Shown: in pieces, positions 29,362 to 37,380 of the stretch
Position numbering within the stretch: position 1 is the stretch's first letter
Layout: every line of letters starts with the position of its first letter
Source: Tessaracoccus palaemonis
GTDB taxonomy: Bacteria > Actinomycetota > Actinomycetes > Propionibacteriales > Propionibacteriaceae
NCBI RefSeq assembly: GCF_019316905.1
Contig: NZ_CP079216.1
Coordinates: forward strand, 682,001 to 746,000
Reading direction: 5' to 3'
DNA: 64,000 nucleotides
The notes under the pieces: generated by a model
Database searches by the model: none
What the model saw: the letters and a program-made list of their open reading frames with translations, nothing else
Told to the model about the DNA's origin: nothing
Made by a program: the position numbers and the translations under genes

Positions 29362-30330
29362 ATGGGCGTGAAGCTGCTCGACCGGGTGCAGGCCATCAAC
29401 TGGAACCGCATCGACGATGACAAGGACCTCGAGGTGTGGAACCGCCTCACGGGGAACTTCTGGCTGCCGGAGAAGGTGCCGCTCAGCAACGACATCCAGT
29501 CGTGGAACACGCTGACGCCCGAGGAGCAGACGCTCACGATGCGGGTGTTCACCGGGCTGACGCTGCTCGACACGATCCAGGGCACCGTCGGTGCTGTGTC
29601 GCTGATCCCGGACGCGCTGACGCCGCACGAGGAGGCCGTCTACACCAACATCGCCTTCATGGAGTCGGTGCACGCGAAGAGCTACTCGTCGATCTTCTCG
29701 ACGCTGTGCTCGACCGCCGAGATCGACGACGCGTTCCGGTGGAGCATCGAGAACGAGAACCTGCAGCGGAAGGCCTCCATCGTGATGGAGTACTACCGCG
29801 GCGACGAGCCGCTCAAGCGCAAGGTCGCCTCGACGCTGCTGGAGTCGTTCCTGTTCTACTCGGGCTTCTACCTGCCGATGCACTGGTCGAGCCGCGCCAA
29901 GCTGACCAACACCGCCGACCTGATCCGGCTGATCATCCGCGACGAGGCCGTCCACGGCTACTACATCGGCTACAAGTACCAGCGGGGCCTCGAGACCCTC
30001 GGCCAGGCCGAGCGCGAGGAGCTGAAGGACTACACGTTCTCGCTGCTGTACGACCTGTACGACAACGAGGTGGCCTACACGCAGGATCTGTACGACGGTG
30101 TGGGGCTGACGGAGGATGTGAAGAAGTTCCTGCATTACAACGCGAACAAGGCGTTGATGAACCTGGGCTACGAGGCGATGTTCCCGGCGACGGTGACGGA
30201 TGTCAGCCCGGCGATTCTGTCCGCGCTGTCCCCGTCGGCCGATGAGAACCATGACTTCTTCTCGGGGTCGGGCTCGTCGTATGTCATCGGCAAGGCCGTG
30301 GCGACGGAGGACGAGGACTGGGACTTCTAG
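29362..30330 (+). CDS. nrdF: Class Ib ribonucleoside-diphosphate reductase beta subunit
   Basis: The 322-residue radical subunit has metal ligands in [23 protein letters not shown] (Glu, His and the radical Tyr) and [24 protein letters not shown] precedes the ATG. The final 100 codons (30031-30330) are duplicated at 37081-37380 with about 94% identity. The last 80 codons use many more A/T-ending codons (GAT, GGT, CAT, ATT) than the first 240, suggesting the tail has a different history. No terminator stands in the 29 bases after the stop, whereas one follows the orphan copy. The gene may therefore be a native 5' part joined to an imported 3' end. Confidence 0.95.
30031..30330 (+). repeat. Direct repeat, copy 1 (3' end of intact nrdF)
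   Basis: This 300-base segment matches 37081-37380 without gaps. I count about 18 differences, mostly third-codon changes after the first 40 bases. The stop codons differ (TAG here, TGA in copy 2). Confidence 0.9.
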
Positions 30331-30359
30331 GAGCCCGCCGCTCTCCATGCGGCAAGTGA

Positions 30360-31184
30360 CTAGAACCCGCCGCCGGCGCGGACGGCGAGGTCCTGGCCGG
30401 ACTCCCAGGTCGCGAGACGCTGGGCGTACTCGGCCTGAAGGTAGCCGAGCGGCTTGGCGCCGAAGAGCTGGCGCAGCGGCGGCTCCTCCATGTCGACGAG
30501 CTCGAGGATCGCGCGCGCAGAGGCCGCGGGGTCACCGCCGCCGGAGATCGCAGTCTTGAAGTCGCCCAGCTGCTCCCGCAGCGGATCGTAGGCCGGGTGC
30601 GGCTCGGCGAAGGCTGCAGTGACGCTTCCGAAATCGGTGGCGAAGGAGTCGGGCTCGACGAGTGTCACGTTGATGCCGAACGGGGCCACCTCGCCGGCAA
30701 GGGCGGCGGTGATACCCTCGATGCCCCACTTGGAGGCGTTGTACGCGCCGACGTACGGGAAGGACAGCACGCCGCCGGTTGAGGCGACCTGGATGATGTG
30801 GCCCGAGCCCTGCTCGCGCAGGTACGGCACGACCGCCTGGCTCACCCATACGGAGCCGAACAGGTTGGTCTCGATGACGCGGCGCAGCTCTGCCTCTGCG
30901 AGCTCCTCGACTGCGCCGAACTGGCCGAAGCCGGCGTTGTTGACGATGACGTCGAGGCGGCCGAAGTGTGCGTGCGCCGCAGCGACTGTGCTGAAGACAG
31001 CGTCGTGGTCGGTGACGTCGAGAGGGAGGGTGAGGACGCGGTCCCCGTAGCGGTCGATGAGGTCGGCGATGGCGTCGACGTTGCGGGCGGTGGCGACGAC
31101 CGAGTCACCGCGCTCCAGGGCGGCTTCAGTCCACTGTCGGCCGAAGCCGCGGGAAGCTCCGGTCACGAACCAGATCTTGCTCAT
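30360..31184 (-). CDS. SDR-family NAD(P)-dependent oxidoreductase
   Basis: The 274-residue classical short-chain dehydrogenase has the cofactor motif TGASRGFG, the Asp of PLDVTDH, NNAG, the active-site Ser of VASTGG and the catalytic YNASK. The substrate is unknown. It lies in the segment inserted between the two nrdF tails and converges on nrdF with only 29 bases between them. A second, divergent SDR lies upstream on the same strand, and both probably share a promoter controlled by the regulator at 32128. Confidence 0.85.
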   Translation of the reverse strand: MSKIWFVTGASRGFGRQWTEAALERGDSVVATARNVDAIADLIDRYGDRVLTLPLDVTDHDAVFSTVAAAHAHFGRLDVIVNNAGFGQFGAVEELAEAELRRVIETNLFGSVWVSQAVVPYLREQGSGHIIQVASTGGVLSFPYVGAYNASKWGIEGITAALAGEVAPFGINVTLVEPDSFATDFGSVTAAFAEPHPAYDPLREQLGDFKTAISGGGDPAASARAILELVDMEEPPLRQLFGAKPLGYLQAEYAQRLATWESGQDLAVRAGGGF

Positions 31185-31286
31185 GTGTTGTTCCGTTTCT
31201 GTGGTTAGGTGCGACCGGCGCGCTGGCGGCGCTGCGGATCACGGGGTGGGATGTTGCTGATCGGGAGTGCGAGGGCCCTGTCCTGG

Positions 31287-31961
31287 TCAGTCGTTCTGAT
31301 TGTTGAGTTCGGACAGGAAGTCGCGGAACTCTCCGCGCTCGGTGTGGAGCCTCCAGATGCGCTCGGCGATCGCCCGTGCGCTGCGTTGGGGATCGTTCGG
31401 GTCGATTGCTCCTGGCACGACGAGTTGCGTGACGTGGATGCCCTCGTCCCTCAGTGTCTCGTGGAGCATCTCGCCGAGGGCGCTCTCACCGGCGAACGCG
31501 ACGGACGTGCCGGCGAAGTGCGCGCGGGCCCTGACGGCGGTACCGCCGTTGATGAGCACGATCGTGCCCTTGCCCGTCGAGCGCATGCCCGGGAGGACGG
31601 TGTCGACGGCGGTACGCAGACCGACCACCGAGAAGCGAAAGGCGGTGCTCAGGTCATCCGGGCTGGTGTCGAGGACGGGCTTCAGGTACTGCCTGGCGGG
31701 GATCGGGCTGTACTGCAGCACGTCGATGTGGCCGAGTTCGCTTCCAGCCCGGGAGAGGGCAGCGCGCAGCGAGCCGGGATCGAGCACGTCGGCAGCGTAT
31801 CCGCGGGTGGTGATGCCTTCGGCGTTGATCGAAGCGACGAGCTCGTCGAGCTTCTCCTGGTTGCGGGCGATCATGGCGACGGCGAAGCCTTCGGCGCCGA
31901 AACGACGGGCGACGGCCGCGCCGACGCCGGGGCCGGCGCCGATGATGGCGATGGTGCTCAT
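31287..31961 (-). CDS. Divergent SDR-like protein lacking the YxxxK motif
   Basis: The 224-residue protein has an SDR Rossmann start (IAIIGAGPGVGAAVARRFG) and the family's central pattern. Where a classical SDR has Ser and YxxxK it reads INGGTAVRARAHFAGTSVAFAGESAL, with no Tyr-Lys pair. It may bind nucleotide without oxidoreductase activity or use other residues. GGAACGCC before the ATG is a weak ribosome site. It is the first gene after the inverted repeat at 32020-32089 and is followed by the canonical SDR after 102 bases. Confidence 0.75.
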   Translation of the reverse strand: MSTIAIIGAGPGVGAAVARRFGAEGFAVAMIARNQEKLDELVASINAEGITTRGYAADVLDPGSLRAALSRAGSELGHIDVLQYSPIPARQYLKPVLDTSPDDLSTAFRFSVVGLRTAVDTVLPGMRSTGKGTIVLINGGTAVRARAHFAGTSVAFAGESALGEMLHETLRDEGIHVTQLVVPGAIDPNDPQRSARAIAERIWRLHTERGEFRDFLSELNNQND

Positions 31962-32019
31962 GGCGTTCCTTTCGTGGTCGTTTCCTCCACCCTAGGAGCG
32001 GAAATCGTCGGGCGGGAGT

Positions 32020-36332: not shown

Positions 36333-36377
36333 TGTCAGGTCTCCTCGGCATCGTTGTCGGTGACCACACAGTACCAT

Positions 36378-36398
36378 CTATTTCGCTGAGTGAAATAG
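36378..36398. promoter_or_regulatory. Palindromic operator for the MarR-type regulator
   Basis: The 21-base near-perfect palindrome has arms CTATTTC and GAAATAG and centre GCTGAGT, with one mismatched pair. It sits in the 103-base gap between the divergent rhamnosidase and MarR genes, in the size and position typical of MarR operators. Confidence 0.72.
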
Positions 36399-36435
36399 GT
36401 TCAGTGGGTATTCTGGGGTCAGGAAAGGAGGCGCC

Positions 36436-36951
36436 GTGCCCCGACCATCGCCCAGCGTTCTCGTCCCCGCGAGCGACGTCGACGCTTCGCCGGTTCTCAA
36501 GGCGACGCGCGAGCCGCTCCTTGATCTGTTCGAGCGACTGATCCGGGTCGCGAACAGCGATGTAGCTCGTCGCGAGCTCATGAACACGGTCGGCTTCCCG
36601 GGCGCCGATGTGCCGACCTTCCTCGCGGTCAACCAGCTCGCGCTCCATGGCGCACTCCGGCCCACCGATCTCGCCGAGCGCCTGGAGACGGGACGGCCCA
36701 ACCTCACGAAGATCGTTCAGCGCCTGGAGAGCCTCGGGCTTGCCGCCCGCGTGGCTGACCCTTCGGATGAGCGGGGTGTGCTCGTCGCACTCACGGATGA
36801 AGGCCGCCGCATCGCGAAGCGCGTCATCCGCACCGAACGCGAATGGGTCACCGCAACGCTCGTCGGGTGGGAGGATGAGGAGGTCTCGACGTTCACGCAG
36901 CTCCTCGCGAAGTTTGTCGACAGGCTCGACTCGGCGTCGAGGGAGCGGTAA
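36436..36951 (+). CDS. MarR-family transcriptional regulator
   Basis: The 171-residue protein has a central winged helix-turn-helix (LALHGALRPTDLAERLETGRPNLTKIVQRLESLGLAARVADPSDERGVLVALTDEGRRIA) with the DxRG-like wing of the MarR family, flanked by dimerisation helices. The GTG start follows AAGGAGG closely. It is divergent to the rhamnosidase-esterase pair and probably represses it until a phenolic or sugar ligand binds. Plant flavonoid rhamnosides would fit both gene types, but that is speculation. Confidence 0.87.
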   Translation: MPRPSPSVLVPASDVDASPVLKATREPLLDLFERLIRVANSDVARRELMNTVGFPGADVPTFLAVNQLALHGALRPTDLAERLETGRPNLTKIVQRLESLGLAARVADPSDERGVLVALTDEGRRIAKRVIRTEREWVTATLVGWEDEEVSTFTQLLAKFVDRLDSASRER

Positions 36952-37080
36952 CCCCGTCCTGGAATCCGTACCCCAGGCCGCCACGGCCGAACCAGAACGC
37001 GTCGACTGAGTCAGTTCGAGGGCGCAGTCCGAGAGGGCTTGAAGCCGCCGAACTCGGGGTTCTCCGCCCGCTCGCCGTCC

Positions 37081-37380
37081 TGCACCTTCTCTCTGCTGAA
37101 CGACCTGTATGGCAACGAGGTGGCCTACACGCAGGATCTGCACGACGGTGTGGGGCTGACGGAGGACGTGAAGAAGTTCCTGCACTACAACGCGAACAAG
37201 GCGTTGATGAACCTGGGGTACGAGGCGATGTTCCCTGCGACGGTGACGGATGTGAGCCCGGCGATCCTGTCCGCGCTGTCCCCGTCGGCGGATGAGAACC
37301 ATGACTTCTTCTCGGGGTCGGGTTCGTCGTATGTCATCGGCAAGGCGGTGGCGACGGAGGACGAGGACTGGGACTTCTGA
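37081..37380 (+). pseudogene. nrdF': Orphan 3' end of nrdF (duplicate tail)
   Basis: These 100 codons match the end of NrdF without gaps ([22 protein letters not shown] to the C-terminal EDEDWDF). They lack all metal ligands and the radical Tyr, so they cannot encode a working subunit. Changes against the intact copy include four replacements near the 5' end (Tyr to Cys, Tyr to Asn, Asp to Gly, Tyr to His), then almost only silent ones. An ATG at 37039 gives a 113-residue open frame by chance. The strong hairpin after it suggests this is the original nrdF end. Confidence 0.85.
37081..37380 (+). repeat. Direct repeat, copy 2 (orphan nrdF tail)
   Basis: Exact offset of 7,050 bases from copy 1, no gaps over 300 bases, about 94% identical. 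Homology stops abruptly at 37081 on the left. Confidence 0.9.

Follow-up and report, generated by a model that had tools for sequence, protein, structure and literature searches.

We examined the 3' end of nrdF, the gene of a class Ib ribonucleotide reductase small subunit, within a 64,000-nucleotide stretch of the Tessaracoccus palaemonis genome (contig NZ_CP079216.1, positions 682,001 to 746,000; hereafter the window), where a segment of unrelated genes stands between the working gene and a second copy of its tail. This segment (30331-37079) is probably a relic, left by a DNA element that inserted into the 3' end of nrdF and supplied the gene with a replacement end. A preliminary description of the window had proposed a mobile segment carrying the replacement 3' end of a protein gene. 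That proposal gained a hotspot of insertion at nrdF, second nrdF tails in other genomes and an uninterrupted nrdF in the relative G021, but an empty site and a second copy of the segment were not found in the genomes searched, and the left edge of the repeat matches no known core. Compared genomes, loci and contigs are designated by G, L and C numbers, respectively.

The final 298 coding bases of nrdF (30030-30327) occur again at 37080-37377 with a constant offset of 7,050 and without gaps, and 282 of the 298 positions (94.6%) are identical, which confirms the earlier observation that the last 300 bases are present twice, 7,050 apart and about 94% alike. A repeat search returned the pair as a single direct repeat of 299 nt (30030-30328 and 37080-37378, spacing 7050, 95%). 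On the right both copies stay alike up to the stop codon, which is TAG in the copy within the gene (inner tail) and TGA in the distant copy (outer tail), while on the left it fades at around 30030-30042 (nrdF nt about 669-681). The sequences following the two stop codons share no clear similarity. The genome consists of one 3.2-Mb contig with one full nrdF, and the outer tail was matched at E = 4e-132, so that chance is excluded. Despite the insertion the nrdF frame is open over 322 amino acids, and most relatives align from residue 2 or 3 to residue 322.

Base-by-base comparison of the 298 coding positions gave 16 differences between the inner and outer tails, 12 of them silent. None of the nine differences in the right 236 bp (30092-30327) was nonsynonymous, against an expectation of about 74% under no selection (P = 5.5e-6), compared to four of the seven in the left 62 bp (30030-30091, 55 of 62 identical), and the contrast between the two parts had a Fisher value of 0.019. 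Because the right 236 bp differ only silently, we consider that both tails were functional for most of their separation, which argues for a donor rather than a decaying local duplicate. The preliminary description had likewise taken a divergence of 6%, mostly silent, as a sign of a donor; this agrees with the right 236 bp.

In the arrangement we propose, an element would have entered the 3' end of nrdF with a replacement 3' end of its own, so that nrdF would stay intact. Recombination would have taken place within the tail, most likely inside a block that is identical in both copies (30092-30116, nrdF nt 731-755). The working nrdF would then be host DNA up to the crossover and element-borne DNA from there to the stop codon. 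The outer copy would be element-borne to the left of the crossover, as an unselected nrdF-like stretch, and to the right of it would be the displaced native tail with the old downstream DNA behind it. To the left of the block the inner tail agreed with G021 at seven of seven differences. Among the nine differences to the right, the inner tail agreed with G021 in four, the outer tail in four and neither in one, and the TGA stop codon is common to the outer tail and G021.

G021 is the closest relative, with DNA 95.5% identical to the window over 5 kb up to the nrdF stop codon. Its nrdF is uninterrupted and has no such segment behind it, and its homology to the window stops at the nrdF stop codon and restarts at window position 40202. 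The interval from nrdF to a flotillin-like gene, found on the right in G012, G020 and G021 as well, ranges from 4.4 kb in G020 through about 11.8 kb in G021 and 12.3 kb in the window to 90.4 kb in G012, and its contents differ in each. The best named relatives of the flotillin-like protein are mostly from Tessaracoccus. Behind the nrdF of G021 is a different filling of 9.7 kb (L112:4312-13984) with putative kinase-, vWA- and phosphatase-like genes and two similar transposase-like open reading frames, named from their translations. At the far end of this replacement no nrdF-end core was found at up to 2 mismatches besides nrdF itself (39 kb examined). The nrdF gene is patchy in the genus: a DNA search of 35 same-genus genomes found the gene in 4 and the tail alone in 1, and a protein-level search detected the tail in 34 of the 198 genomes of the window's family, of which 6, counting that of the window, belong to the genus. 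Though the host is a Tessaracoccus, nrdF (compared within window 26546-30330) is closest to Microbacterium among named genomes, and because of this 92% protein identity the nrdF operon may have been transferred into the host lineage.

Integrase genes were observed at the same gene end. In G012, a genome of the same genus, a tyrosine-integrase gene (PF00589) starts 320 bp behind nrdF and is followed by genes for a TraG/VirD4-type coupling protein and a DprA-like protein. This integrase had at least 15 matches in 12 of 398 Microbacterium-family genomes, with at most 4 candidates scored per genome. Two matches of 37% identity (G545 and G499), with no nrdF in their 4-kb loci, were left out, and the remaining 13, 63-77% identical to the query, represent 12 genes (one in two pieces) of a family we term F1. 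Eleven of the 12 are located about 320 bp behind an nrdF end; one of these follows an nrdF paralogue and another, on a short contig, a tail of 16 residues. The twelfth is a fragment in G640, which a lone copy of the nrdF end precedes by 139 bp. G012, L062, L048 and L085 were found via their nrdF loci and are hence outside this count. The distance from the last nrdF codon to the integrase match was 313-323 bp in 13 of 14 aligned cases (which include G012, L062 and L048, all found through nrdF) and 393 bp in the broken copy L048.

The nrdF end (GACTGGGAYTTCTRR, 1 mismatch allowed) was observed again on the same strand and no more than 100 kb downstream at six places in five of the 12 F1 genomes (G324, G588, G615 twice, G628 and G640). 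The estimated chance expectation was 0.3, from 19 matches of a reversed control pattern over the 12 genomes; G329 was left out of this search, and nrdF genes and the lone tail of G615 were not counted. Because these copies recur downstream in F1 genomes, the F1 core is most likely at the nrdF stop codon, judging from the sequences. In G012, a 15-bp repeat with two mismatches to this core lies 82 kb away, and in the window one site besides the two tails matched it with up to 2 mismatches, upstream at 23923. Apparent tandem insertions at nrdF, with several same-strand copies of its end, were seen at G640:C16:172490-194504, where the second core is followed by another F1 integrase fragment, and at G615:C1:1615170-1700319. 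G640 also has an F1 integrase behind its nrdF paralogue (G640:C21:18327-20256, 62% tail identity), so the target seems to be a shared gene end and not one locus. Within the 198 genomes of the window's own family, F1 was present in G012 only among the matches listed, the other listed matches being at most 46% identical, and the plasmid and phage collections yielded matches in 11 and 324 records, none of them reaching 60% identity to F1. Going by these gene arrangements, the 3' end of nrdF is an insertion hotspot that integrase-borne elements have entered in this genus and in the Microbacterium family.

Second copies of the nrdF tail were also found elsewhere, as the preliminary description had anticipated in suggesting a search for other segments bounded by such tails (e.g. 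G249, G227, G302, G386, G576 and G615). Short second tails were seen in two of 50 genomes picked for having nrdF (G249 and G227), and 214 of the 398 Microbacterium-family genomes had an nrdF tail match, 28 of them more than one. Tails were then compared in 27 of these 28 together with G227. Where a second match covered the full tail (57-89% identity) we treated it as a putative further nrdF-type gene, and the count leaves out tails at contig ends (G611 and G547) as well as weak or contig-split tails outside the nt 882-886 class (G521, G369 and G329). Five genomes share a tail start at nrdF nt 882-886, which we refer to as the second class: G576 (95%, 2 kb away, extending 93 bp past the stop codon), G302 (97.7%, 3.1 kb behind nrdF), G386 (93%, 1.1 kb), G249 (89% over 84 bp, 39.5 kb away) and G227 (100% over 84 bp, on another contig). 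In G249 and G227 an integrase gene that is not F1 (PF00589) adjoins nrdF on the opposite strand. With five genomes sharing one start and two of them having an integrase at nrdF, site-specific entry seems to occur here. Longer second tails were found in G615 (222 bp from nt 748, 91%), G493 (90% from nt 587, interrupted by an inner gap) and G294 (76% from nt 638), and the start of the G615 tail falls within the crossover block proposed for the window. As far as sequence comparison can tell, replacement or displaced tails recur at nrdF, and the window is one long-tailed case. A lone, worn nrdF tail was observed in G030 (L116:10742-11024), starting from about nt 690 and containing an internal TAG. 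It lies in a different neighbourhood, flanked by putative elongation-factor-G-like and coaBC-like genes (named from translations), and the genome has no other nrdF match.

The DNA behind the outer tail resembles the spacer between nrdF and the F1 integrases. A profile of this spacer, built from 14 sequences (L062, L048 and G012 included), had a single match in the window at 37351-37468, about 30 bp of it being nrdF end. When applied to 80 nrdF loci it scored 354 for L062 and 306 for L048 (by construction), 66 for L033, 64 for L085 and 48 for L056, the best of the rest reaching 32.7; elsewhere, G021 scored 34.1 bits and G386 scored 76 and 32.5 behind its two tails. The hairpin contained in this stretch (37414-37451) may be what an older F1 element left behind, or else a native terminator.

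We considered several other origins for the duplicated tail. RecA-dependent general recombination would require no site-specific enzyme: a circular or linear donor with a 5'-truncated nrdF and the segment would have joined the chromosome by a single crossover in the tail. This possible route is a variant of the relic reading, counted within the probability given to it, and it explains the same arrangement almost as well. Identical blocks of 25-32 bp are present between the tails, the segment has no integrase, and long tails elsewhere start variously (nt 587, 638, about 690 and 748), as homologous joining would give, but the shared start of the second-class tails, with an integrase beside nrdF in two of the five genomes, does not favor it. 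As the mover we would somewhat prefer a since-lost integrase over general recombination. It is rather unlikely that the inner tail is native and the outer tail foreign, brought in at the right-hand end of an element that used an F1-like core to integrate at the stop codon. The repeat does stop exactly at the stop codon, the site of the F1 core, and the inner tail is nearer to G021 than the outer tail is (285 vs 278 of 298), but the F1-like spacer (44 bits) follows the outer tail and not the inner one. In protein searches, furthermore, a long second tail was found among F1 genomes in G615 only, and not at the F1 right core.

A duplication of the nrdF tail within this genome, later split by unrelated genes and followed by decay of the outer copy, would account for the closeness of the two tails to each other and to G021 and for a left 62 bp that looks unselected. 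We regard it as very improbable, since neutral decay predicts about 74% nonsynonymous changes and was rejected for the right 236 bp, and the sequences right after the two stop codons are not clearly similar. One further proposal, which we hold to be quite unlikely, is a third kind of nrdF element, consisting of short integrase-less cassettes (1-7 kb) that would recombine at a core within nrdF, near nt 731-755, bring 220-300 bp of functional gene end with them and depend on some recombinase acting in trans. Its members would include the segment of the window and the 2-kb piece of G615.

Several observations weigh against the relic reading. Over the 298 positions the inner tail differed from G021 at 13 and the outer tail at 20, compared to 16 between the two tails, and these numbers do not tell which of the tails is native. 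We placed the split at 30091 with the differences already in view, and the sharing test is weak alone (Fisher 0.03-0.08), so the crossover is a reading and not proof. The left 62 bp of the outer tail is also nrdF-like, which a simple attachment site would not need, and the left edge of the window repeat matches neither the F1 core at the stop codon nor the nt 882-886 start. The other seven of the 12 F1 genomes had no downstream core on the same strand and contig (1 mismatch): G471 and G338 had cores on another contig, G364 had one on the opposite strand 8.4 kb away, G012 had the two-mismatch copy mentioned above, and G586, G252 and G238 had none nearby. No F1-related integrase was found near the tails of G302, G386 and G576, and the 222-bp tail of G615, situated 2 kb past the right core of the F1 element there, is thus not simply an F1 product. 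The segment has no integrase by Pfam on its six genes or by tblastn of the window with the nrdF-linked F1 integrase, which gave a single chance-level match far from the segment (E = 0.18 at 45897), and the six genes include no transposase by Pfam, both as the preliminary description had stated. No F1 integrase was found in the window's own genome (G000) at E <= 1e-25 among the best 8 candidates scored.

An empty site, in which nrdF would be followed directly by the sequence from window position 37381 onward, was also lacking in the 198 family genomes (best 2 candidates per genome). The right flank (37381-40201) had 21 matches in 19 of these genomes, one being the window itself, and the only match beside an nrdF, of 45 bp in G070, proved to be noise. 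The preliminary description had named as confirmation of an insertion that close relatives show nrdF uninterrupted and followed directly by the hairpin. The first part is seen in G021, which lacks the segment, but neither the hairpin directly behind such an nrdF nor the window's right flank beside an nrdF was observed in the 198 genomes.

The segment contains six genes (Table 1), in agreement with the gene content listed earlier except that the short-chain dehydrogenase genes number two. The closest other relative of the rhamnosidase, 75% identical, is from a Microbacterium. The G+C content is 0.678 in the segment, 0.647 at 26500-30330 and 0.706 at 42599-60000. The segment was not found again as a unit in 39 genus genomes (own included; best 7 candidates per genome) or in the 398 Microbacterium-family genomes (best 1-2 per genome), searches in which a copy may have been missed; they gave separate genes only, 65-74% identical in the longer matches. 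A tRNA-linked island was considered and rejected, the sole tRNA of the window (tRNA-Leu at 44669) being far from the repeat. An operator-like inverted repeat of 29 nt, 86% complementary and with 32 nt between its arms, was observed at 32010-32099 between the second dehydrogenase gene and that of the MmyB-like regulator. To the right of the outer tail, at 37646-38727, an HTH_17 gene is immediately followed by a PIN_3 gene, a toxin-antitoxin-like pair.

Table 1. Features of the nrdF region, in window positions.
Feature	Position	Strand	Basis or remark
nrdF, class Ib ribonucleotide reductase small subunit, intact, 322 amino acids, stop codon TAG	29362..30330	+	Open reading frame; genome search; 92% amino acid identity to Microbacterium nrdF
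Inner copy of nrdF 3' tail, within the working gene	30030..30330	+	Direct-repeat search and base-by-base comparison
Proposed crossover block, 25 bp identical in both tails (nrdF nt 731-755)	30092..30116	+	Position inferred, picked after viewing the data
Inserted segment of 6,749 bp, flanked by the two tails (repeat unit of 7,050 bp)	30331..37079	.	Missing here in G021, G012, G020 and G026
Short-chain dehydrogenase 1	30360..31184	-	PF00106
Short-chain dehydrogenase 2	31287..31961	-	PF00106
MmyB-like XRE-type regulator, predicted start codon not fixed	32071..33018	+	PF17765, PF13560
Alpha/beta hydrolase (esterase), approximate start inside open reading frame 33053-34519	33053..33985	-	PF07859
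Alpha-L-rhamnosidase (GH78)	33987..36377	-	PF17389, PF08531, PF05592, PF17390
MarR-family regulator	36436..36951	+	PF12802/PF01047
Outer copy of nrdF 3' tail, lacking the gene's first two thirds, stop codon TGA	37080..37380	+	Repeat search and alignment
Stretch like the nrdF-to-F1-integrase spacer, with hairpin 37414-37451	37381..37468	+	nhmmer, 44.1 bits, E 2.1e-13
Flotillin-like gene, bounding the nrdF-flotillin interval on the right in G012, G020 and G021 too	42535..44052	-	Locus comparison

The arrangement has a known counterpart in prophage e14 of E. coli, which is described as entering the 3' part of the housekeeping gene icd and supplying a replacement end, with a tail copy of 165 bp and 12 nucleotide changes left at the far side (PMC11148124; the copy is given as 163 bp in PMC6379469). 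In both cases a duplicated gene end bounds foreign DNA and the target remains intact, the window having 298 bp with 16 changes, 12 of them silent. However, e14 has an integrase and phage genes and the window segment has none, the target gene, element and host are unrelated, and the window is known from sequence alone. Elements mapped with TIGER are reported to have identity blocks reaching some 250 bp if the integrase site is well inside the target gene, attP then having the replacement sequence (PMC10111431), and 43.4% of mapped islands are given as lying in protein coding sequences (PMC12424338). The window has a long identity block as these elements do, but is a relic without an integrase. 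The F1 element of G012 shares with the window the gene, the gene end and the genus, and its nrdF-integrase spacer resembles the stretch after the outer tail. It differs in having its core at the stop codon and a 15-bp repeat in place of a 300-bp tail, and the window has no F1 integrase.

The main texts of PMC10111431, PMC12424338, PMC12884075 and PMC6379469 contain no word beginning with "nrd". A description of nrdF as an integration target was not found in the literature searched, although a 2020 precise-mapping survey of integrative elements may list nrdF. We class the window as a worn example of a known arrangement, of the e14/icd type, at a target that we have not found described. The 3' end of nrdF, a gene of DNA precursor synthesis, would be a hotspot that at least two families of actinobacterial integrases use and behind which relic tails persist, and thereby a place to seek islands that tRNA-based searches miss. 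The F1 and second-class integrases are candidate tools for inserting DNA into Microbacterium, Tessaracoccus and similar hosts. The tails may serve as a record of past insertions, since displaced gene ends can be compared with the working one.

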